From IMG/VR virus record IMGVR_UViG_3300030060_000377, positions 954-22,460 of that record: a stretch of 21,507 nt of DNA. One strand, written 5' to 3'. The stretch is from a virus. The notes below the pieces were generated by a model, which saw nothing but the letters and a program-made list of their open reading frames with translations, had not been told where the DNA came from and did no database searches. The translations under genes were made by a program, and so were the position numbers. Within the stretch, counting starts at the first letter, position 1, and every line of letters starts with the position of its first letter. Below are positions 10,170-19,971 of this stretch, piece by piece.

Positions 10170-10675
10170 TGAAAGAAAATTACAACAAATGTTTAGAGAC
10201 TATACTACACCATGAAGGTGGCTATGTTAACCACCCCGAGGACCCAGGTGGAGAAACAAATTTAGGTGTTACAAAAAGAGTGTACGAAGAACATGGTGGC
10301 ACAAAAGACATGAAAGATTTAACAGTAGAAGACGTAGCACCAATTTACAAAAAAGGTTATTGGGACAAAATGAAAGGTGATGACTTACCTAGCGGTTTAG
10401 ATTTATGTGTATTTGATTTTGGTGTTAATGCAGGACCAGGACGTGCTGCTAAATTTTTACAAGAAATGATTGGCACCACAGTAGATGGCGGCATAGGACC
10501 TATGACCTTGGCTAAAGTAAATGAGTATGTAGATAGTAATGGTTTGGAAGAAACCATAAAACAATATCAAGTAGCTAGACACGAATATTATGAAAGTCTT
10601 TCTACGTTTGCAACATTTGGAAGAGGTTGGACAAGAAGAGTAGAAGAGACAACCGAGTTAGCACTAGAATTATAA
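10169..10675 (+). CDS. GH108-type endolysin (N-acetylmuramidase, 168 aa)
   Basis: ATG 10169 is translationally coupled to the small TM protein. The N-terminal domain shows the glycoside hydrolase family 108 signature: ILHHEGGYVNHPEDPGGETNLGVT (residues 12-35), with Glu16 as the expected catalytic acid, then APIYKKGYWDKM and LPSGLDLCVFDFGVNAG. The C-terminal half (about 85-168; DGGIGPMTLAKVN, then FGRGWTRRVEE) matches the peptidoglycan-binding domain usually paired with GH108. It cleaves peptidoglycan glycan strands to release progeny. There is no signal peptide, consistent with holin-dependent export. Length is typical and all signature blocks are present. Confidence 0.9.
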   Translation: MKENYNKCLETILHHEGGYVNHPEDPGGETNLGVTKRVYEEHGGTKDMKDLTVEDVAPIYKKGYWDKMKGDDLPSGLDLCVFDFGVNAGPGRAAKFLQEMIGTTVDGGIGPMTLAKVNEYVDSNGLEETIKQYQVARHEYYESLSTFATFGRGWTRRVEETTELALEL

Positions 10676-10684
10676 TACAATCTG

Positions 10685-10693
10685 TGCTATAAT
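10685..10693 (+). promoter_or_regulatory. Extended -10 element at the start of the nucleic-acid module
   Basis: TG at 10685-10686, C, then a consensus TATAAT at 10688-10693 lie in the 23-nt gap before the exonuclease gene. No good -35 is present (TAGAAT at 17 bp), but a perfect extended -10 can suffice. Predicted initiation (about 10699-10701) coincides with the GTG start at 10699, and no Shine-Dalgarno is visible, so a leaderless message is likely. A second TATAAT lies at 10671-10676, and an inverted repeat TAGCAC (10659-10664) / GTGCTA (10684-10689) flanks the region. Confidence 0.55.
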
Positions 10694-10698
10694 GTCGC

Positions 10699-11367
10699 GT
10701 GCAATTAATTAAGAAATATAATTACGCAGAACTAAAACGCAAAGAAGGGGATGGTAGATTATACCTTACACCTGATGGTCAAGCGTTACCTTCCGTTACC
10801 ACCATACTTTCTAAAACCAAAGATAAAACGTTTTTAAAACAATGGCGTGCAAAAGTTGGTGAGAAAAAAGCAGAAGAAATAATAAAGACAGCAGGTCAAA
10901 TTGGCACCGCGCTCCACCTATATATAGAACGTTTTGTGAACGAAGATAAATACAAAGATCTTACAGAAATAGGTGTGCAAGCAGAAAAAATGGCACAAAA
11001 GATAATAGATGAGGCTTTTGGTGACATAACAGAAATATGGGGGTCAGAGGTGCATTTGTACAATCCTGGTAAATACGCAGGCACTGCAGACATGATAGGT
11101 GTATATAAAGACAGACCTACCATTATAGATTTTAAACAAACTAATAGGCCAAAGAAACGTGAATGGATACAAGATTATTTAATGCAACTTTCAGCGTACG
11201 CCGCGGCCCACAATGCTTTGTTTGGCACAGAAATAGACCAGGGTGTTGTTCTTATGTGTTCGCGTGATTTAACCTTCCAAAGATTCGAACTGACTGGCGA
11301 GAAATTTGTACGTGCTACTAATGCATTTATGAAAAAATTGGATGATTATAATGCAAGTATAATCTAA
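10699..11367 (+). CDS. PD-(D/E)XK exonuclease, MGME1/RecB/Cas4-like (222 aa)
   Basis: The start GTG 10699 is the only usable start: an in-frame TAA lies at 10690-10692 and the conserved region begins soon after. Motifs in order are PSVTTILSKTKD (31-42), GTALHLYIE with His73 (69-77), SEVHL with Glu117, YAGTADMIG with Asp131, IIDFKQT with Asp144 and Lys146, and the QDYLMQLSAYAAA helix with Gln158/Gln163. This is the RecB-like nuclease layout, most like the MGME1-type exonucleases of marine phages. It likely degrades host DNA or processes DNA ends in recombination and replication, using Mg2+. It has no Fe-S cysteines, unlike Cas4. It runs convergent to the minus-strand helicase, with a 1-bp gap. 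Confidence 0.85.
   Translation: MQLIKKYNYAELKRKEGDGRLYLTPDGQALPSVTTILSKTKDKTFLKQWRAKVGEKKAEEIIKTAGQIGTALHLYIERFVNEDKYKDLTEIGVQAEKMAQKIIDEAFGDITEIWGSEVHLYNPGKYAGTADMIGVYKDRPTIIDFKQTNRPKKREWIQDYLMQLSAYAAAHNALFGTEIDQGVVLMCSRDLTFQRFELTGEKFVRATNAFMKKLDDYNASII
11344..11364. other. AT-rich hairpin at a convergent gene junction
   Basis: GATTATA (11344-11350), loop ATGCAAG, TATAATC (11358-11364): a perfect 7-bp stem at the 3' end of the exonuclease gene, just before the convergent helicase stop. A weak bidirectional terminator is possible, but the stem is AT-rich and no clear U-tract follows on the + strand. Confidence 0.3.
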
Positions 11368-11368
11368 A

Positions 11369-12805
11369 TCAAATCCAGTCTGATAATTCTTCTCCACTAA
11401 TTTCTTTTGCAATGTTTACCTTATTCTTTAACGCTTTTATTATTTTTTCATCTACAGTATTTTTTGATACCATGTCAATATATAACACTGGATTTTTTTG
11501 ACCTATACGATGTGCACGGTCTTCTGACTGTATTCTTTTTTCTAAATCGTAATTATTGGAATAATATATTACTGTGCTAGCTGCTGTCAGTGTAATACCA
11601 TATCCTCCTGTTTGTGTATTGCCTATAAAAAATCTACAATCATTCTTTTTGTTTTGAAAATCGTATATACAACGTTGCCTGTCCTCTGCTTTTGTTGCGC
11701 CATAGTATGTGCAGTATGACGTAGGACCATATTCTTTTTTTATTGCCTGCTCTATGTTTAGTATGTCATGTATGTAATTTGCCCATATAATTGCTTTACC
11801 TGTTGTCTCCGATAATATTTGCATTAACTCGTCTACCCTGTTGTTTTTAAGATTTAACACGTCACCACTATCTGTTTTCATGTGTCCACATGTTATTTGA
11901 TGTAGTCGCATTAACTGTGTCAATACATTAACAGCTGTAAGAGATTGTCCTTTTAACACAGTCATTGCATTTGTTTTCATGTCCTGGTATGCAACACGTT
12001 GTTCATCTGTTAGTTCTACTTCACGTTTAGTAAATGTTTTTTCTGGTAAATCTAAACAATCTTTTTTAAGAATACGGTAAGAGTGTGGTGATACTAAATT
12101 ACCTAGTTGTGCTAGATTTTTAAATTTAACTATTTTTTGATATTTATGTGTGCCACCTGCTGCGTTAGCTGTGATAACAACAGCATATCTAGTTCTAAAT
12201 GCATAAAAACTTTGTTGTCCTAGTATCTCTGGGTCAAGAAAATCCATCTGTGACCACAGATCCATGGGTGATTGTGTTACAGGTGATCCTGTAAGTATTC
12301 TTCTATACTTTGCTTCTTTGCTAAGTGCTAATATGTTCTTTGTTCTTTTTGCTTGTGGGTTTTTTATTGTTGTACTTTCGTCAACTATCATCATTGATTT
12401 ACCTATTAAAAATATCCTAGCAAATTCTACACCTTTTTTTGTAGACAATGCTTCTACATTCATAACCATAATTTTAAATCTAAAATCGTCAACTTTTTTT
12501 ATATCTATAAGTGACTGTTTATAATCAGAACTTGTAGATTGCTTCCATGCAACAACATTTTTTTCTATGTAGTCAGGAACATGAACTGGGATTTCTTGAT
12601 CTACCCAGTTCATGTATGTACCCTTCGGAGCAACTATTAAAACCCTATCTATCTTACCTTTGTTATATAATATACATGCATTATCTAATGCTATTTTAGT
12701 TTTGCCTGTACCCATCTCTGCAAATATGGCAAAAGATTCTTTATTCCAGCATTTTTTTAACGCATCTTTCTGATGCTCATACGGCTCAGTTTTAAATTTA
12801 TACAT
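11369..12805 (-). CDS. SNF2-family SF2 helicase / DNA translocase (478 aa)
   Basis: This is the only minus-strand gene. I start it at ATG 12805 (MYKFKTEPYEHQ) because the in-frame ATG at 12832 lies inside the predicted -10 box. Motifs (from 12805): Q-like YEHQKDAL, Walker A AEMGTGKT (29-36), Ia VLIVAPKG (55-62), Walker B VDEST (141-145, the fourth box residue being Thr), III LTGSPVTQSP, IV IIWANY, V TQTGGYGITLTAAS, VI SEDRAHRIGQ (427-436). DRAHRIGQ is diagnostic of SNF2-type ATPases. It is a full-length two-lobe ATPase core without extra domains. The family moves along duplex DNA and remodels protein-DNA complexes. In this setting it may assist replication, recombination or transcription (inferred). 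Confidence 0.9.
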   Translation of the reverse strand: MYKFKTEPYEHQKDALKKCWNKESFAIFAEMGTGKTKIALDNACILYNKGKIDRVLIVAPKGTYMNWVDQEIPVHVPDYIEKNVVAWKQSTSSDYKQSLIDIKKVDDFRFKIMVMNVEALSTKKGVEFARIFLIGKSMMIVDESTTIKNPQAKRTKNILALSKEAKYRRILTGSPVTQSPMDLWSQMDFLDPEILGQQSFYAFRTRYAVVITANAAGGTHKYQKIVKFKNLAQLGNLVSPHSYRILKKDCLDLPEKTFTKREVELTDEQRVAYQDMKTNAMTVLKGQSLTAVNVLTQLMRLHQITCGHMKTDSGDVLNLKNNRVDELMQILSETTGKAIIWANYIHDILNIEQAIKKEYGPTSYCTYYGATKAEDRQRCIYDFQNKKNDCRFFIGNTQTGGYGITLTAASTVIYYSNNYDLEKRIQSEDRAHRIGQKNPVLYIDMVSKNTVDEKIIKALKNKVNIAKEISGEELSDWI

Positions 12806-12821
12806 AAGTCTTTCTTTATTC

Positions 12822-12850
12822 TTGAAACGCATTATATCATATGGTATAAT
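12822..12850 (+). promoter_or_regulatory. Sigma70-type promoter for the replication operon
   Basis: -35 TTGAAA (12822-12827), 17-bp spacer, -10 TATAAT (12845-12850) preceded by TG (12842-12843). Predicted start is about 12856-12858, giving a 5' leader of roughly 12-14 nt before ATG 12870 (weak AAGAA upstream). It is the best sigma70 match in the window. It overlaps the divergent promoter of the helicase. Confidence 0.7.
12831..12850. repeat. 20-bp near-perfect palindrome formed by the two divergent -10 boxes
   Basis: ATTATA-T-CATATG-G-TATAAT: 18 of 20 positions are self-complementary, centred between 12840 and 12841; only the T/G pair flanking CATATG breaks symmetry. It could be a dimeric repressor operator, or simply the consequence of two facing extended -10 elements. 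Confidence 0.6.
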
Positions 12851-12858
12851 ATAATCAA
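12831..12858 (-). promoter_or_regulatory. Divergent promoter for the SNF2 helicase, overlapping the + strand promoter
   Basis: Read on the minus strand: -35 TTGATT (12858-12853), 16-bp spacer, TG (12839-12838), -10 TATAAT (12836-12831). Predicted start is about 12824, giving a leader of about 19 nt before ATG 12805. The two polymerase sites share most of their DNA, so they cannot be occupied together. Confidence 0.6.
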
Positions 12859-12869
12859 GAAATAAAAAT

Positions 12870-13176: not shown

Positions 13177-13746
13177 ATGACAAGTTTAGACCCAAGAGAT
13201 TTAGATTTAGTTACCCAAATGAAAATGGATGCGGGCAGCACGGCCCAGGATAACATGGGAAAGATAGGTGCTGTTGCAAATGATGTAGCAGACACAGATA
13301 AAGAGATTGCAGATCTAGAAGATCAATTAAAAAAGAAAAAAGATTATAAAAAACATTTAGCAGAAAATGTTCTACCTAACTTATTTGCAGAAGTAGGTTT
13401 GTCAGAATTAAAATTGTCAGATGGTAGACATTTAAAAGTTTCCAACTATTATGGTGCTTCAATCAAAGAAGCTAAGAAACAAGCAGCTTTTAGTTGGCTA
13501 AGAGACAATGGATTTGGTGATTTAATAAAGAACCAAGTCAGTTGTAGCTTTGGAAGGAATGAAGATGAGAAAGCTAAGTCGTTGATTAATACTTTGGATA
13601 GTCAAGGTTATCAATCAATGCAACGTGAATGGGTCGAACCTTCCACCCTTCGCGCATTCATACGAGAGCAGCATGAAGCAGGTAAGCAATTACCTATGGA
13701 TTTGCTTGGAGCTTTCGTAGGACAAAAAACAACGATAAAAGAATAG
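13177..13746 (+). CDS. Coiled-coil replication-module protein (189 aa), unknown function
   Basis: ATG 13177 follows GAAAGG. Residues ~36-66 form a strongly charged coiled coil (DKEIADLEDQLKKKKDYKKHL). A globular part follows with a beta motif (LSELKLSDGRHLKVSNYYGASI), a helix-rich QAAFSWLRDNGFGDLIKNQ, and the C-terminal block VEPSTLRAFIREQHEAGKQLPMDLLGAFVGQKTTI. That C-terminal block recurs in phage proteins encoded beside SSB-like genes. The coiled coil plus small domain is loosely reminiscent of Gam-like DNA-end binders, but I see no firm evidence for that. It lies 11 bp upstream of the SSB-like gene in the same operon, so a DNA-binding or SSB-partner role is plausible only. Confidence 0.7.
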   Translation: MTSLDPRDLDLVTQMKMDAGSTAQDNMGKIGAVANDVADTDKEIADLEDQLKKKKDYKKHLAENVLPNLFAEVGLSELKLSDGRHLKVSNYYGASIKEAKKQAAFSWLRDNGFGDLIKNQVSCSFGRNEDEKAKSLINTLDSQGYQSMQREWVEPSTLRAFIREQHEAGKQLPMDLLGAFVGQKTTIKE

Positions 13747-13757
13747 GAGAAAAGGCC

Positions 13758-14564
13758 ATGGCAAAAGCACAGGCAGTCGCAAAAGCGGCAACATTAGATC
13801 TAGCAGTTCTTGCTAGTGATTCTAAAGATGCTAGTGGTTTCGGTAATCTTGATATGTCAAGAGATATCGCAATCCCTTACATCAACATACTACAATCCAA
13901 TAGCCCACAACTTAATCCGCAGAAAGCAGAATATGTTGATGGCGCTAAAATAGGACAGTTTTATAACACTGTCACACAAGAGGTCAGTAATACTTTAAAA
14001 GTTATTCCTGTTCTCTATCAACTACGATACGTAGAATGGAAACCACGTGAGCAAGGTGGAGGATTCGTAGAATCACACCACGCTGATAGTGGCATTCTTA
14101 GTAAAACTAAACGTGACCAAATGACGTTTAAAGATGTATTACCTAGTGGTAATTACATTGCAACCACTGCCTATCATTATGTTATGGTGCAAGGCAAAGA
14201 TGGTGCATGGTCCCAGGCAGTTGTCAGCATGACATCTACTCAATTAAAAAAGAGTAGACGTTGGAACAGCTTAATGTTGAGCCAAAAAGTTAATGGTCCA
14301 TCGGGAAGTTTTACACCACCAACATATGCTATCATTTACAAGCTATCGACAGTTAGCGAGTCTAATGATCGTGGTAGTTGGTTTGGTTATCAAGTTGAGA
14401 GAGAAGGGCAACTAGAAGACGCTGGCGTCTACAACGAGGCGAAATCATTTTCTACTGCCGCATCACGAGGAGAAGTCGAAGCTAAACCTATGTCAGAGGG
14501 AGAGCCTGTAAAAGAGGCTCCACAATCTAACGGAAAAGAAAGCCAAGAAGACGTACCGTTTTAG
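13758..14564 (+). CDS. Putative phage single-stranded DNA-binding protein (268 aa)
   Basis: ATG 13758 has AGGAGAAAAGG upstream. The core (about 30-235) is beta-rich: IAIPYINILQSNSPQL, LKVIPVLYQLRYVEWKPR, YHYVMVQGKDGAWSQAVVSM, TSTQLKKSRRWNSLM, GSWFGYQVEREGQ. After an acidic, low-complexity tail (~236-268) it ends EDVPF, very close to the bacterial SSB C-terminal tip (DDIPF) that docks SSB partners. The aromatic/basic beta core plus acidic tail is the general architecture of phage SSBs such as T7 gp2.5. It probably coats ssDNA during replication and recruits the polymerase, primase or nucleases. The OB fold is inferred, not demonstrated; the tail is directly visible. Confidence 0.7.
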   Translation: MAKAQAVAKAATLDLAVLASDSKDASGFGNLDMSRDIAIPYINILQSNSPQLNPQKAEYVDGAKIGQFYNTVTQEVSNTLKVIPVLYQLRYVEWKPREQGGGFVESHHADSGILSKTKRDQMTFKDVLPSGNYIATTAYHYVMVQGKDGAWSQAVVSMTSTQLKKSRRWNSLMLSQKVNGPSGSFTPPTYAIIYKLSTVSESNDRGSWFGYQVEREGQLEDAGVYNEAKSFSTAASRGEVEAKPMSEGEPVKEAPQSNGKESQEDVPF

Positions 14565-14574
14565 GTAAGTCTTC

Positions 14575-14583
14575 TGCTATACT
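14575..14583 (+). promoter_or_regulatory. Extended -10 element upstream of the primase gene
   Basis: TG (14575-14576), C, TATACT (14578-14583) in the 28-nt gap after the SSB-like gene; no -35 is recognisable at 15-18 bp. Predicted initiation at about 14590-14592 directly precedes GTG 14593. The strong GGAGG at 14584-14588 would therefore serve only read-through transcripts. Confidence 0.45.
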
Positions 14584-14592
14584 GGAGGTTTA

Positions 14593-16083
14593 GTGGAAAG
14601 ATTCAAAGTAATATTTGAAGGCTTAGACGTGGCTTATGGTCAGCACCAACCTAGCGGTTCGCGTGCTGACGGTAAGCAAGAGGGCAAATCATATATTGTA
14701 AAACAAGAAGTAAATGATGATTTATGGAATAATCATCTAGCTGGCAATGGTCCATCGTTAGGTATTATTCCTATAAAAGCAGACAATACAGTTAAATGGG
14801 GGTGCATAGATATAGACACGTATCCCATAGATTACAAAAAAATAATAAATAGTATTAGAAATTTAAAATTACCGTTAGTGCCATGCAGATCCAAAAGTGG
14901 AGGCATGCATTTGTTTATGTTTTTTAAAAACCCAGTGTCCGCAAGACTAGCCAGAGAGAAGCTACGAGAGGTTGCATCTGGTTTAGGACATTCTTCTGTA
15001 GAAGTATTTCCCAAACAATCAACGATACTGATAGAGAAAGGAGACTTAGGTAATTTTTTAAATCTTCCTTATTATAATTCAAAAAGTACAACTAGATATG
15101 CTTACAAAGATGATGGAACGGCAGCAACATTGCCGGAGTTCTATTCTTTATATGATAAATATGTTGTAGAAGAAATAGACAAAGTTGCATTACAGATATC
15201 TAATGATGTCATACAAGATGGCCCTCCTTGTTTACAACAATTGTGCACGCAAGGATTTCCAGAAGGCACTCGTAACAATGGTTTGTTTAACATTGGTGTA
15301 TACTTACGTAAGTTTGATCCAGACAATTGGAAAACATTATTAGAAAAATACAATCAAGATTATATGACACCACCTTTATCAGCATCAGAGGTAGTAACAG
15401 TACAAAATCAATTAGAAAAAAAAGAATATAATTATAGATGTAAAGAACCACCCATTAGTTCTTACTGCAATGCAAAAGTTTGTAGAGGTAGAAAGTACGG
15501 TGTAGGTGGCAATGGTACATCGTTAGAGTTTAGCGCACTAACTAAATTAGAAACAGATCCACCTGTGTGGTTTTTAGATGTTGGTGACGCAAGAATGGAA
15601 TTACAAACAGAAGAGCTGCAGATACAAACTAAGTTTCAAAAGAAATGTATGAACAGTTTGAATCACATGCCTGCTCTTGTAAAACAGTCAGTATGGCAGG
15701 AAATAATTGAGAGATTGATGCAAAATCTTATCAAGATTCCTGTGTCTGATGATGGGTCATTGGCCGGTCAGTTTGAAGCTCACCTCCAGGAGTTTTGCAC
15801 TGATCGTGCCCAGGCTCTAAATCGTGACGAATTATTATTACGTAAACCATGGACAGAAGATGGTGTGACATGGTTTAGACTTAAAGATCTACAAGATTAT
15901 CTTACACGTAACAAGTTTACATATTTTAACACAGGTCAACTTGTGCAAGCATTACGACATCTAAAAGGTAAAAGTGAAAAGTATAATCTAAAAGGTAGAA
16001 CTGTTCGTGTGTGGGGTGTACCTGCATATCAACAACAAGATTCTGCATTTGACATAAAGGAGGTAGATGGTGCGCCGTTCTAA
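14593..16083 (+). CDS. AEP-superfamily primase with PriL-like cysteine region and C-terminal winged helix (496 aa)
   Basis: GTG 14593 is preceded by GGAGG. The AEP catalytic domain (~1-190) shows motif I WGCIDIDTY (Asp73, Asp75), motif II KSGGMHLFM (102-106, His106), and a VEVFPKQ strand (136-142) probably bearing the third motif. Residues 210-303 contain PPCLQQLC, GFPEGTRNNGLFNIGVYLRK, YRCKEPPISSYCNAKVC and RKYG. Cys213, 282, 292 and 297 have the order expected of a PriL-CTD 4Fe-4S primase region. The C-terminus (~405-475; RDELLLRKPW, WFRLKDLQDYL, LRHLKGK, RVWGVP) resembles a winged helix. The protein should make primers for the family A polymerase. It ends VDGAPF, echoing the SSB tail. No helicase domain is fused. 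Confidence 0.85.
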   Translation: MERFKVIFEGLDVAYGQHQPSGSRADGKQEGKSYIVKQEVNDDLWNNHLAGNGPSLGIIPIKADNTVKWGCIDIDTYPIDYKKIINSIRNLKLPLVPCRSKSGGMHLFMFFKNPVSARLAREKLREVASGLGHSSVEVFPKQSTILIEKGDLGNFLNLPYYNSKSTTRYAYKDDGTAATLPEFYSLYDKYVVEEIDKVALQISNDVIQDGPPCLQQLCTQGFPEGTRNNGLFNIGVYLRKFDPDNWKTLLEKYNQDYMTPPLSASEVVTVQNQLEKKEYNYRCKEPPISSYCNAKVCRGRKYGVGGNGTSLEFSALTKLETDPPVWFLDVGDARMELQTEELQIQTKFQKKCMNSLNHMPALVKQSVWQEIIERLMQNLIKIPVSDDGSLAGQFEAHLQEFCTDRAQALNRDELLLRKPWTEDGVTWFRLKDLQDYLTRNKFTYFNTGQLVQALRHLKGKSEKYNLKGRTVRVWGVPAYQQQDSAFDIKEVDGAPF

Positions 16084-16372
16084 ATTACCCAAAATAAAGA
16101 AAGGAATGTGGGCAGAACAATTAGCTGTGTTACATCTTTTAAACCAAGGATATTTTGTATTTAAAAATTTATATGGCGTTGGCCCTGCTGATCTTATAGC
16201 AATAAATGAAAAAGGCGCTGTAGAAATATATGATGTAAAAAGTGAAAGTTATCGTACAACATGGAGACCTGGCACACGTATATGTAGAAAATTAACACAA
16301 GAACAAAAGAAACTAAAGATGAAGTTTATTTTTGTAGAAAGAGATGGAACATGCAAAGTAAGACAAAGATAA
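16067..16372 (+). CDS. PD-(D/E)XK nuclease, Holliday-junction-resolvase-like (101 aa)
   Basis: The start is ATG 16067 or the adjacent GTG 16070; consensus AAAGGAGG lies at 16056-16063, and the spacing slightly favours the GTG. The gene overlaps the primase end by 17 bases. Motifs: helix WAEQLAVLHLLNQGYFVFKN with the early Glu, GVGPADLIAINEKG with the first catalytic Asp, and EIYDVKSES with the D-x-K pair. This minimal nuclease core resembles archaeal Hjc and related phage resolvases, which cut branched DNA. It may resolve replication or recombination intermediates before packaging. A Mrr- or VRR-like nuclease is the alternative. The fold is well supported; substrate specificity is inferred. 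Confidence 0.75.
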   Translation: MVRRSKLPKIKKGMWAEQLAVLHLLNQGYFVFKNLYGVGPADLIAINEKGAVEIYDVKSESYRTTWRPGTRICRKLTQEQKKLKMKFIFVERDGTCKVRQR

Positions 16373-17856
16373 TATTAGGTCCTCCTGGCACAGGTAAGAC
16401 ACACAATTTATTAAATTTGGTAGAACAAGAATTAGCAAAAGGCACTGCACCTGACCGCATAGCGTTTGTTGCATTTACCAAGAAAGCGGCAACCGAGGCT
16501 CGTGACCGGGCAATGAAGAAATTTAATTTAGAAGAACAACATCTACCATATTTTAGAACGTTACATTCATTTGCTTTTAATCAATTAGGATTAACAAAGT
16601 CAGAGGTAATGTCACGTGATAACTATAAAGAGTTTGCACAAACATTTGGCATGGATTTAGGATCTGTTGCTGATGGCACAGACTCTGGTGGTGTAGTGAC
16701 AACAGATAATATTTTAATTAATGAAATAAATTTAGCACGAATGAAGTGTATGGATTTAGAACATCATTATAATGAATCTAATTTACAAGATATGTCTTGG
16801 CATTCATTATTACGTGCACAAAGATCATTAGAAGAATTTAAAAAGAAAAAAGAAGTATTTGATTTTACCGATATGATTGAATTGTATTTGGATTCTGGTC
16901 CAACACCAAAATTAGAAGTGGTATTTGTAGATGAAGCACAAGATTTGTGTAAATTACAATGGCGTATGATAAATAAGATAACAGAGAATGCAAGACAAGT
17001 TTACATAAGTGGTGACGATGACCAAGCTATATACAACTGGGCTGGAGCAGATGTTAGATATTTTATACAATTACCAGGTGAAGTAGAAACACTAAAACAG
17101 TCTTTTAGGTGTTCTCGTGTTATTCAAAATTTATCAGGTAGAATAATAAGTAGAGTTAAATTAAGAAGAAACAAACAATGGAGAGGCACAGAGAGAGCTG
17201 GATTAGTGCAATACCATTCTTACCCAGATAGTGTCAATTTAAGAGATCCAGGTAGTTGGCTTGTAATGGCTAGGACTAATTATATGCTTGATGAGATAGA
17301 ACGTGACATACGATTACAAGGCATGTTGTATAAAAGAAATAATAAATTACCTATATCTGCAAAATTATTAAATGCTGTTGAGGCATGGAAAAAATTAAAT
17401 GGTGGTGAAATTGTACCTTTGGCAGACATAAGAGACATATATTCATATATGTCTAGTCAAATAGGAATTGAGAGAGGTCACAAAAATCTTAAGATGGCTG
17501 ACAAAGAACAATATGAATTAGAAGAACTTGTTATGCACCATGGATTATTAATGGGTGGCAGACCATGGGATGTAGCATTTGATAAAGTTGGCAATAGAGA
17601 TAAAGAATATTTACGTGCCATAGAAGTTAGAGGTACGATATCAAAAGATCCTAAAATAAATATAAGCACTATACATGGTGCAAAAGGTGGAGAAGCAGAC
17701 AATGTTATGTTGCTCACAGATCTATCTAAAAAATCACAAGAAGCTATGGAAAGAGATTCGGACGACGAATGCCGTGTGTTTTATGTAGGAGCAACACGCG
17801 CAAAAGAAAATCTACATATAATACAACCACAACGAGATGGAGGGTTTATAATATGA
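16351..17856 (+). CDS. UvrD/PcrA-like SF1A DNA helicase (501 aa)
   Basis: ATG 16351 overlaps the nuclease gene by 22 bases. All SF1 motifs are present: I GPPGTGKT (10-17), Ia AFTKKAATEARDRA (41-54), Ib FRTLHSFAF, II FVDEAQD (192-198), III SGDDDQAIYNWAGA (220-233), IV LKQSFRCS, V TIHGAKGGEADNV (440-452), VI VFYVGATRAKENL (476-488). At 501 aa it is shorter than bacterial UvrD/PcrA (~700) with reduced 1B/2B regions, as in many phage versions. SF1A enzymes unwind DNA 3' to 5'. Here it may act in replication restart, recombination, or as the replicative helicase, since no DnaB-like gene is visible. The stop overlaps the next start (ATGA). Confidence 0.92.
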   Translation: MQSKTKIILGPPGTGKTHNLLNLVEQELAKGTAPDRIAFVAFTKKAATEARDRAMKKFNLEEQHLPYFRTLHSFAFNQLGLTKSEVMSRDNYKEFAQTFGMDLGSVADGTDSGGVVTTDNILINEINLARMKCMDLEHHYNESNLQDMSWHSLLRAQRSLEEFKKKKEVFDFTDMIELYLDSGPTPKLEVVFVDEAQDLCKLQWRMINKITENARQVYISGDDDQAIYNWAGADVRYFIQLPGEVETLKQSFRCSRVIQNLSGRIISRVKLRRNKQWRGTERAGLVQYHSYPDSVNLRDPGSWLVMARTNYMLDEIERDIRLQGMLYKRNNKLPISAKLLNAVEAWKKLNGGEIVPLADIRDIYSYMSSQIGIERGHKNLKMADKEQYELEELVMHHGLLMGGRPWDVAFDKVGNRDKEYLRAIEVRGTISKDPKINISTIHGAKGGEADNVMLLTDLSKKSQEAMERDSDDECRVFYVGATRAKENLHIIQPQRDGGFII

Positions 17857-18146
17857 CCAAAGAAGAAATACTAGAAGAGGCTAGTAGGTTAGTAGCTAAA
17901 GATAGAAATCTATCACATGGCGATGCATTTAGTAATCATGCAGAGATAGCAGAATATTGGAATATTTTTTTAGATAAAAAATTACAACCAATGGCTAGTA
18001 TTACTGCAGATGACGTTGCTTTGATGATGATATTGTTAAAGATATCTAGAAACAATCAAGGTAGAAAAATAAACATGGATAATTTTGTCGACATGGCAGG
18101 TTATGCAGCAATAGCAGGAGAGATAATTGACTCAGGATCTATATAA
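17853..18146 (+). CDS. DUF6378-like small phage protein (97 aa)
   Basis: I start at ATG 17853, overlapping the helicase stop (ATGA). The open frame reaches back to 17769, but that part only shadows the helicase C-terminus. The sequence shows the pattern I associate with DUF6378: SHGDAFSNHAEIAEYWNIFL, ITADDVALMMILLKISRNNQG, NMDNFVDMAGYAAIAGEII. It is all-helical with conserved His, Asp and Lys/Arg, somewhat reminiscent of MazG-type helical nucleotide hydrolases but without a clear ExxE...ExxD site. It overlaps the polymerase gene by 20 bases. A link to nucleotide or DNA metabolism is suggested only by location. Confidence 0.75.
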   Translation: MTKEEILEEASRLVAKDRNLSHGDAFSNHAEIAEYWNIFLDKKLQPMASITADDVALMMILLKISRNNQGRKINMDNFVDMAGYAAIAGEIIDSGSI

Positions 18147-19971
18147 AACAGTAACATCACATTGGGTTGCACCTACAGAGTTTCCAGATATTGAGGGACG
18201 TGTAGCAATTGACTTAGAAACATGTGATCCGGATTTAATAAAACATGGACCAGGTTGGCCAACGATGAGAGGTAAGGTGATTGGAATAGCTATAGCCACT
18301 GCGTCCTTTAAAGCTTATTACCCTATTGCCCATGAGGGTGGTGGTAATATGGTGCAACATAAAGTTGTAAGTTACATAAAATCTATTTGTAATAATGACA
18401 AAATAGAAAAAATATTTCACAATGCACAGTATGACATAGGTTGGCTGTGGACACTTGGAATAGAAGTAAAAGGCAGAATACACGACACAATGGTAGCTGC
18501 TGCGTTAATAGATGAGAATAGATATTCGTATACATTAAATAGTATTGTGCACGAATATCTTGGTGAGTTTAAGAACGAGCAAAAGTTGAAAGAAGCAGCA
18601 GAAGCATTTGGTGTAAATCCAAAATCAGAAATGTATAAATTACCTGCAGAGTTTGTTGGTGAATATGCAGAGGCTGATGCTGATCTTACATATAAATTAC
18701 ATGAAAAACTTACATGGGAGATTGTAAAAGATAATCTTACTACGGTGTATGATGTAGAGTGTAAATTGATAAATGTAATATTTCATATGACAAGACGCGG
18801 TGTTAGATTTGACACAGTTAAATGTGACATTTTAAATGATAAATTTAAGAATAAAGAAAAAAAATTAATGAAACGTATAAAAGATTTAACAAATCTTAAT
18901 GTAGAAATATGGGCAGCAGCTTCTATTGCTAAAGCGTTTGATGCACTAAATTTACCGTACGAAAGAACGGAGAAGACTGATGCACCATCATTTACGAAAA
19001 TGTTTCTTACAGATCATCCACATGAATTACCAAGACTAATCATGCAAGCACGTGAATTAAATAAATTACGCGGCACGTTTTTGTATGGTTTGATGAACTA
19101 TGCAGACAATGGGAGGATACATGCACATATTAATCAAATTAGGTCTGACAGTGGTGGCACTGTGTCTGGCCGTTTTTCTTATAATCATCCTAACTTACAG
19201 CAAGTACCCAGCCGTGGTCAGTTTGCGAAAGATGTTAGGAAATTATTCATTCCTGAAATGGGTGAATATTGGCTCAAAGCAGATTACTCGCAACAAGAAC
19301 CAAGGTTACTTACTCATTGGGCCTGCCTCGTCGAACAGCCAGGTGCTAGGGAAGTACAGGAAGCATATCATAAAAAAGACCTCGATTTTCACCAACAAAC
19401 GGCCGATATGGCAGGTTGTGAAAGACGTCTTGCGAAGACTATTGGGTTAGGTGTAATGTATGGCATGGGTTATAACAAACTAGCACGTGAGTTAGATCTA
19501 GAGCCACAAGAAGCAAAAGAAATGCTTACAGACTTCCGTAAACGTGTACCTTTTATGCAAGGTATGCTTGAAGCAGTGATGAATCGCGCTAATTCTAAAG
19601 GTATAATTAGAACTTTATTAGGTCGTAAATGTAGATTTGATTTGTGGGAACCTACACAATGGGGTGTACACAAACCACTACCATTAAATCAAGCGAAGGT
19701 AGAGTATGGTGAAGCTATAAAAAGATATGGCACATACAAAGCTCTTAACAGATTGATTCAAGGATCAGCTGCAGATCAAACAAAGAAAGCGATGGTAGAT
19801 GTGTATGAACAATTAGGTGTTACACCACTAATACAAGTACATGATGAACTTGATTGTTCTGTTAAAGATGAGAAACAGGCAAATCAAATAAAAGAAGTTA
19901 TGGAGACTTGTGTAAAATTAGAAGTGCCATCAAAAGTAGATGTAGACCTAGGAGAAAGTTGGGGACAATGA
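18127..19971 (+). CDS. polA: Family A DNA polymerase with 3'-5' exonuclease domain, Leu762 type (614 aa)
   Basis: The start is TTG 18127 with AGGAGAG at 18116-18122. The exonuclease domain is intact: ExoI AIDLET (Asp29, Glu31), ExoII HNAQYD (Asn99...Asp103), ExoIII YAEAD (Tyr180...Asp184). The polymerase domain has motif A KADYSQQEPR (Asp386, Glu391), motif B RRLAKTIGLGVMYG (Arg434, Lys437, Tyr445) and motif C VHDE (571-574, Asp573). Aligning motif B with E. coli Pol I puts Leu441 at position F762. There is no 5'-3' exonuclease domain, as in other phage Pol I-type replicases. It is very probably the phage replicative polymerase, working with the adjacent primase, SSB and helicases. Confidence 0.95.
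   Translation: MTQDLYKTVTSHWVAPTEFPDIEGRVAIDLETCDPDLIKHGPGWPTMRGKVIGIAIATASFKAYYPIAHEGGGNMVQHKVVSYIKSICNNDKIEKIFHNAQYDIGWLWTLGIEVKGRIHDTMVAAALIDENRYSYTLNSIVHEYLGEFKNEQKLKEAAEAFGVNPKSEMYKLPAEFVGEYAEADADLTYKLHEKLTWEIVKDNLTTVYDVECKLINVIFHMTRRGVRFDTVKCDILNDKFKNKEKKLMKRIKDLTNLNVEIWAAASIAKAFDALNLPYERTEKTDAPSFTKMFLTDHPHELPRLIMQARELNKLRGTFLYGLMNYADNGRIHAHINQIRSDSGGTVSGRFSYNHPNLQQVPSRGQFAKDVRKLFIPEMGEYWLKADYSQQEPRLLTHWACLVEQPGAREVQEAYHKKDLDFHQQTADMAGCERRLAKTIGLGVMYGMGYNKLARELDLEPQEAKEMLTDFRKRVPFMQGMLEAVMNRANSKGIIRTLLGRKCRFDLWEPTQWGVHKPLPLNQAKVEYGEAIKRYGTYKALNRLIQGSAADQTKKAMVDVYEQLGVTPLIQVHDELDCSVKDEKQANQIKEVMETCVKLEVPSKVDVDLGESWGQ

Follow-up and report, generated by a model that had tools for sequence, protein, structure and literature searches.

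Interlocked divergent promoters between a helicase gene and the replication operon of pelagiphages, a candidate partitioner of host RNA polymerase

When two opposite promoters are nested over a palindrome in a phage genome, is the palindrome an operator at which a regulator chooses the direction of transcription, or is it what two such promoters look like when they interlock? The question is raised by positions 12822-12858 of a 21,507-nucleotide stretch of viral DNA (hereafter the window), part of a 22,460-base IMG/VR virus record. Here, two oppositely directed sigma70-like promoters, as read from the sequence, were nested within 37 bp, the leftward one facing a SNF2-type helicase gene and the rightward one a replication operon (Table 1). 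The preliminary description of this DNA had claimed two interlocking opposite promoters as well as an 18/20 palindrome with the -10 hexamers as its arms and CATATG at its centre. The sequence agreed with the second claim, and the first was borne out in that both promoters were present and conserved, with interlocked elements. Each -35 box forms an outer edge of the element and contains the predicted start of the opposite promoter, and the two -10 hexamers lie inside, 8 bp apart. The palindrome is located upstream of both predicted starts and would therefore be absent from either predicted mRNA. Its centre, CATATG, is two extended -10 TG motifs placed back to back (nCA-TA-TGn), and in one relative (L016) the palindrome was perfect, 20/20. 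It was also noted that both leaders open with a similar A-rich AAGAA(A)TAAA (AGAAAG in other clades), a motif that may possibly pair with the 16S rRNA of alphaproteobacteria at its extended 3' tail.

Table 1. Positions of the promoter elements, leaders and flanking genes in the window.
Feature	Position	Strand	Remark
-35 hexamer TTGAAA, rightward promoter (replication operon)	12822..12827	+	TTG invariant in 44 distinct cores
Extended -10 TGG-TATAAT, rightward promoter	12842..12850 (hexamer 12845-12850)	+	17-bp spacer
Predicted + transcription start (A, 7 nt past the -10)	12857	+	From standard -10 to +1 spacing
-35 hexamer TTGATT, leftward promoter (helicase)	12853..12858	-	CAA on the + strand invariant in 44 cores
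Extended -10 TGA-TATAAT, leftward promoter	12831..12839 (hexamer 12836-12831)	-	16-bp spacer
Predicted - transcription start	about 12823-12824	-	From standard -10 to +1 spacing
37-bp interlocked core TTG-N31-CAA	12822..12858	both	38 bp in most relatives
18/20 palindrome (two inverted -10 hexamers and nCA-TA-TGn centre)	12831..12850		CATATG at 12838-12843
A-rich short leader AAGAAATAAAAAT, replication operon	12857..12869	+	Putative ribosome-binding role
A-rich short leader AAGAATAAAGAAAGACTT, helicase mRNA	12806..12824	-	Putative ribosome-binding role
SNF2-type superfamily II helicase	11369..12805	-	PF00176 (1e-26), phrog_62 (2.4e-130)
First rightward operon gene, Pam3 gp32-like (PF23992), 101 aa	12870..13175	+	CARF/SAVED-like fold in predicted model
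Remainder of the rightward operon, up to the point followed	13177..19971	+	Gene order as in HTVC027P, 023Pt_psg01 and DSL-LC04

Judged by predicted gene content, the window phage carries an HTVC023P-type pelagiphage module, with helicase, gp32-like protein, primase and DNA polymerase in the same gene order. The nearest named phages by helicase identity were 023Pt_psg01 (55%), HTVC027P (53%), DSL-LC04 (50%) and HTVC023P (43%). Relatives share the helicase start at 12805; the longest-ORF start, 12832, falls inside the gene's own -10 box. The helicase also matched the helicase parts of the defence proteins ZorD and DpdE (PADLOC-DB, 3e-47), which probably reflects mere membership of a shared helicase family. 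In the operon, the gp32-like gene is followed by genes for Pam3 gp33-like and gp34-like proteins, an AEP-type primase, a small nuclease-like ORF, a UvrD-like helicase, a DUF6378 protein and a family A DNA polymerase. The gp32-like protein was modelled at a pLDDT of 90 and, among the top listed solved-structure matches, resembled CARF and SAVED domains (best Z 8.9, 100 residues, 2.8 A); Foldseek matched it to a viral SAVED ring nuclease with an E value of 1.4e-3, while a protein-sequence search of the PDB gave no significant match. The model thus suggests a stand-alone CARF/SAVED-like domain, with Z values around 8-9 that are only moderate and no relation in sequence, and the protein may serve the phage as a ring nuclease or as a binder of cyclic nucleotides. 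Since the model contained no HTH, the protein is not an obvious regulator of the promoter.

Within the window, the rightward promoter was the top site on the + strand (score 13.2; next best 10.1) and the leftward promoter the top site on the - strand (10.5; next best 10.4), on a scale of E. coli weights that may not fit the uncalibrated promoters of SAR11. One interlocked pair with both scores of at least 10 was observed, against 0.09 expected from 100 dinucleotide shuffles of the window, and when the 64-bp intergenic stretch was shuffled 20,000 times, no pair arose in which both scores were at least 10.4. The pair falls into the broad class of overlapping divergent sigma70 promoters, since its opposite -35/-10 pairs are properly spaced and their footprints overlap. 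That it is a chance product of AT-rich DNA was ruled out by the shuffles together with the conservation in relatives, of which the conservation is the stronger evidence.

Relatives were gathered by helicase (80) and by primase (80), resulting in 44 distinct cores. The cores had been collected with TTG/CAA in the search pattern; a pattern-free listing showed the same TTG/CAA, and the conservation was therefore not created by the pattern. Among 94 loci carrying the first operon gene, TTG-N31/32-CAA adjoined that gene in 88; the other six include cases with a contig end, gene insertions or an alternative start, as well as the distant HTVC027P. Of 53 distinct contexts, 37 had a core of 38 bp and 16 a core of 37 bp, while the spacing to the start codon ranged over 9-21 nt on the left side and 9-26 nt on the right. 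A fixed core between variable leaders indicates that indels are tolerated outside the element and not inside it; the length would be frozen because each internal base serves both promoters, so that a single indel spoils both spacers. In the rightward -10 hexamer, T1, A2 and A4 were invariant across the 44 cores. The -10 boxes were 8 bp apart in the main peak of 65 contexts, and -10 scores in alternative registers (gaps -7, -9 and -10) were set aside as belonging to other or shifted sites. Some lineages of the window's clade had weak -10 boxes despite good -35 boxes. In all, hundreds of related phages retain the predicted overlapping layout of opposite promoters.

The element was also retained when the neighbouring genes differed on either side. 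In some relatives, a pyrimidine-dimer glycosylase-like gene with a weak match to PF03013 (7e-6) was inserted between the helicase gene and the promoter (L023:4562-5014, L101:1775-2248 and L109:2761-3213, among others), and the element stayed beside the operon. On the other side, differing small genes of about 45-114 aa, several of them short and basic, were present between the promoter and the gp32-like gene in L006, L047, L056, L060, L066, L129 and L136, an arrangement that resembles a slot for small first-expressed genes.

Similar layouts were found in other pelagiphage clades. In the 023Pt_psg01-like clade (L249-L328), an outer TTGACA...TGTCAA at 37 bp was present in 47 of 49 distinct sequences; both -35 boxes were perfect TTGACA and the -10 boxes were poor, a pattern that might point to an activator or to a polymerase with other preferences. 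In the HTVC027P-like clade (L169-L248), TTTACT...AGTCAA at 51 bp was present in 45 of 46, both -35 boxes abutted or overlapped the start codons of the flanking genes, and in 40 of 50 sequences the -10 boxes overlapped by 4 bp; the predicted starts are separated by about 21 bp. Upstream of the helicase gene, this clade also shows mirrored arms that are long and A/T-rich (TTTACTTTT..CTTTCTA / TGAAAG..AAAAAGTCAA). The HTVC023P-like clade (L329-408) has the same divergent genes, with promoter scores no better than those of shuffles. A compact overlapping divergent promoter, as predicted, thus recurs in three clades and two geometries and is not universal. The papers searched contained no description of such a promoter element for pelagiphages, and the word "promoter" is absent from the paper describing the clade (PMC9599517).

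We propose, with a probability of roughly 0.72, that the element is a compact divergent promoter pair that would be transcribed in both directions, exclude simultaneous use and partition host RNA polymerase between the helicase gene and the replication operon. A polymerase bound in one orientation would shut out the opposite one, and its orientation would decide whether the SNF2 helicase gene or the replication operon is fired; a near-consensus and roughly matched pair would thereby act as a steric partitioner and not as a regulator-driven switch. According to its RNA-seq paper (PMC12753301), the cultured relative HTVC027P encodes no RNA polymerase and depends on that of the host throughout, which makes the sigma70 polymerase of the host the enzyme to be expected here. 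The overlap between the two sites is nearly complete, which would make binding exclusive, in line with the report that opposing polymerases cannot share such promoters and that boosting one direction reduces the other (PMC12825309); with interlocked elements, simultaneous occupancy is sterically implausible. The main text of the HTVC027P paper contains no strand-resolved start sites and, with regard to timing during infection, presents expression clusters and not the helicase and operon genes themselves (PMC12753301).

The predicted strengths of the two directions were consistent with such a matched pair. Across the 44 cores they were correlated, with a rho of 0.59 for the whole promoters and 0.81 for the -10 boxes. 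At the level of 11 clusters the correlation for strength reached 0.97, most of which came from 7 clusters with both -10 boxes at consensus against 4 with both weak. The mean difference in strength was 1.76 bits, compared to 2.97 bits when partners were re-paired, and the + direction was on average 0.93 bits stronger (p=0.005). These matched predicted strengths across related sequences are suggestive and not proof. They invite an extension, which we put forward tentatively and with some doubt, namely that the pair sets a ratio without any regulator. Each polymerase would then take its direction as in a coin toss, the helicase-to-operon ratio would stay fixed whatever the polymerase level, and the strengths would have been matched by selection in three lineages and two geometries.

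The closest known counterparts are the bidirectional promoters of E. coli and Salmonella (Warman, Grainger; PMC12825309, PMC10268837), which share with the phage element pseudo-symmetric sigma70 elements, divergent transcription (predicted here), presumed use by one polymerase orientation at a time and, often, functionally linked genes. Bidirectional promoters are defined by divergent starts 7-25 bp apart and shared -10 positions (PMC10268837). In the window the predicted starts are about 33 bp apart (33-35 bp in relatives with the 38-bp core) and the -10 hexamers are separated by 8 bp without shared positions, which places the element outside the published definition, although it may well work like a bidirectional promoter. 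The form found in the HTVC027P-like clade, with its overlapping -10 boxes and predicted start distance, would fit the definition. Such promoters are already known to be common in bacteria, and those tested were too weak for polymerase competition; the five tested in E. coli were weak, whereas the -35 boxes and extended -10s of the phage pair are near consensus.

This comparison bears on the main rival to polymerase partitioning, according to which two independent promoters have merely been squeezed together for compactness, with occupancy too low for interference and no regulatory consequence. The basal activity of the tested E. coli bidirectional promoters was indeed too low for competition (PMC12825309), the double duty of each base would account for the constant core length without selection for exclusion, and the HTVC023P-like clade manages without the element. 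However, the -35 and extended -10 elements of the phage pairs are far better than typical and better than those of the tested E. coli promoters, so that competition would be expected, and in E. coli the improvement of one -35 box sufficed to suppress the opposite RNA (PMC12825309). The overlapping layout has, moreover, been retained in three clades with two different geometries, and we consider that compactness by itself is possible but somewhat unlikely. The two accounts can be tested against each other, since these abundant marine phages form a natural series of strong interlocked pairs with fixed geometry, dozens of variants and two layouts. Variants with both TG motifs, one or none, and with separate or overlapping -10 boxes, could reveal whether steric competition is used, tolerated or avoided.

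The preliminary description had suggested that a dimeric regulator could use the palindrome as its operator and that the locus could be a two-way switch between the helicase gene and the replication operon; the regulator would then pick one or the other as infection proceeds. We regard this as improbable. Mirrored positions were compared across the 44 cores, with permuted pairings as the reference, and the symmetry was located in the -35 TTG/CAA and the -10 boxes alone. Positions outside the promoter elements (spacer and centre) were less symmetric than permuted halves (1.50 versus 1.90 of 5, z = -3.1); an operator would predict the opposite trend, and this low symmetry therefore speaks against one. 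The sequence of the centre also varied freely between lineages. The extended -10 TG was present on both strands in 18 cores, on the + strand only in 9, on the - strand only in 12 and on neither in 5, and the occurrence of all four combinations indicates that the TG halves are gained and lost independently by strand. TG was absent mainly where the -35 box of the same strand was better (+, p=3e-6; -, p=0.02; 44 related cores), and this compensation, not significant over 11 clusters, fits selection on the promoter of each strand separately. On the basis of the covariation of mirrored positions, the operator was rejected as the main explanation. The preliminary description had also proposed that the -10 boxes and the CATATG core be examined for co-variation in relatives, which the boxes displayed and the core did not, and had said that its view would be refuted if close relatives had lost the symmetry together with both -10 boxes; these were retained. 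On present sequence evidence, the palindrome looks like a by-product of two promoters and not a docking site for a regulator, and a phage palindrome that spans divergent promoters should not be taken for an operator by default.

Overlapping divergent promoters were reportedly described for Tn10 tetA/tetR by Bertrand et al. in 1983 (as cited in PMC11686294); there, as in the phage element, a short intergenic region contains two complete divergent promoters that overlap. The tet region carries operators for a co-encoded repressor, while for the phage element no regulator of this kind and no additional dyad were found. In E. coli bioA/bioB, the palindrome is the BirA operator; that of the phage is explained by promoter elements. 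The bio promoters are otherwise alike in being face-to-face and divergent over a palindromic region, and are among the five tested in PMC12825309. The Pc/Pr promoters of pLS20 (PMC4207663) are overlapping and opposite and exclude each other, as the phage promoters presumably do, but they differ in having very unequal strengths and in being controlled as a switch by RcoLS20 and looping; the predicted phage strengths are matched. Dyad symmetry over overlapping divergent promoters is the layout of regulated tetA/tetR and Pc/Pr (PMC4207663), which favours a switch, as does the poor characterisation of the first operon gene and its neighbour, and the perfect -35 and poor -10 boxes of the 023Pt_psg01-like clade would suit an activator or an arm-binding protein. 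Against this, no HTH or other DNA-binding regulator family was recognised among the scanned proteins of the window, which belongs to a 22-kb fragment with several proteins of no assigned function, and the first operon protein is modelled as a CARF/SAVED-like domain without HTH. According to PMC4207663, which cites Bendtsen et al., overlapping promoters switch when they are of unequal strength and a regulator affects the two in different ways. Given these conditions, a two-way switch is unsupported by strengths that are matched across lineages and by the lack of a recognised regulator.

It could also be argued that only one promoter is real and the other an accident of the AT-rich, self-complementary -10 sequence, as -10 boxes are inherently near-symmetric and the + promoter is the stronger in the window (13.2 versus 10.5). 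This is very improbable, since the - strand -35 box (CAA on the + strand, usually TTGANT or TTGACT) and its spacer were kept in 44 of 44 cores, the helicase gene would otherwise be left without a promoter, and in several lineages the - direction equalled or exceeded the + direction in predicted strength. That the palindrome has a role at the level of DNA, for example in origin melting or as a replication or packaging signal, might be suggested by an AT-rich dyad adjoining replication genes and by the convention of opening phage records at this spot, but has a negligible chance of being right, as promoter elements account for every conserved position, the arms differ in sequence between clades with the promoter logic kept, and no iterons were seen in the stretch read.

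Finally, a further promoter-like site was observed before the exonuclease gene, at about 10663-10700 of the window on the + strand. In some relatives the -10 box of this site lies within a palindrome, GTGGTATAATACCAC (L109, about 221; L128, about 163).
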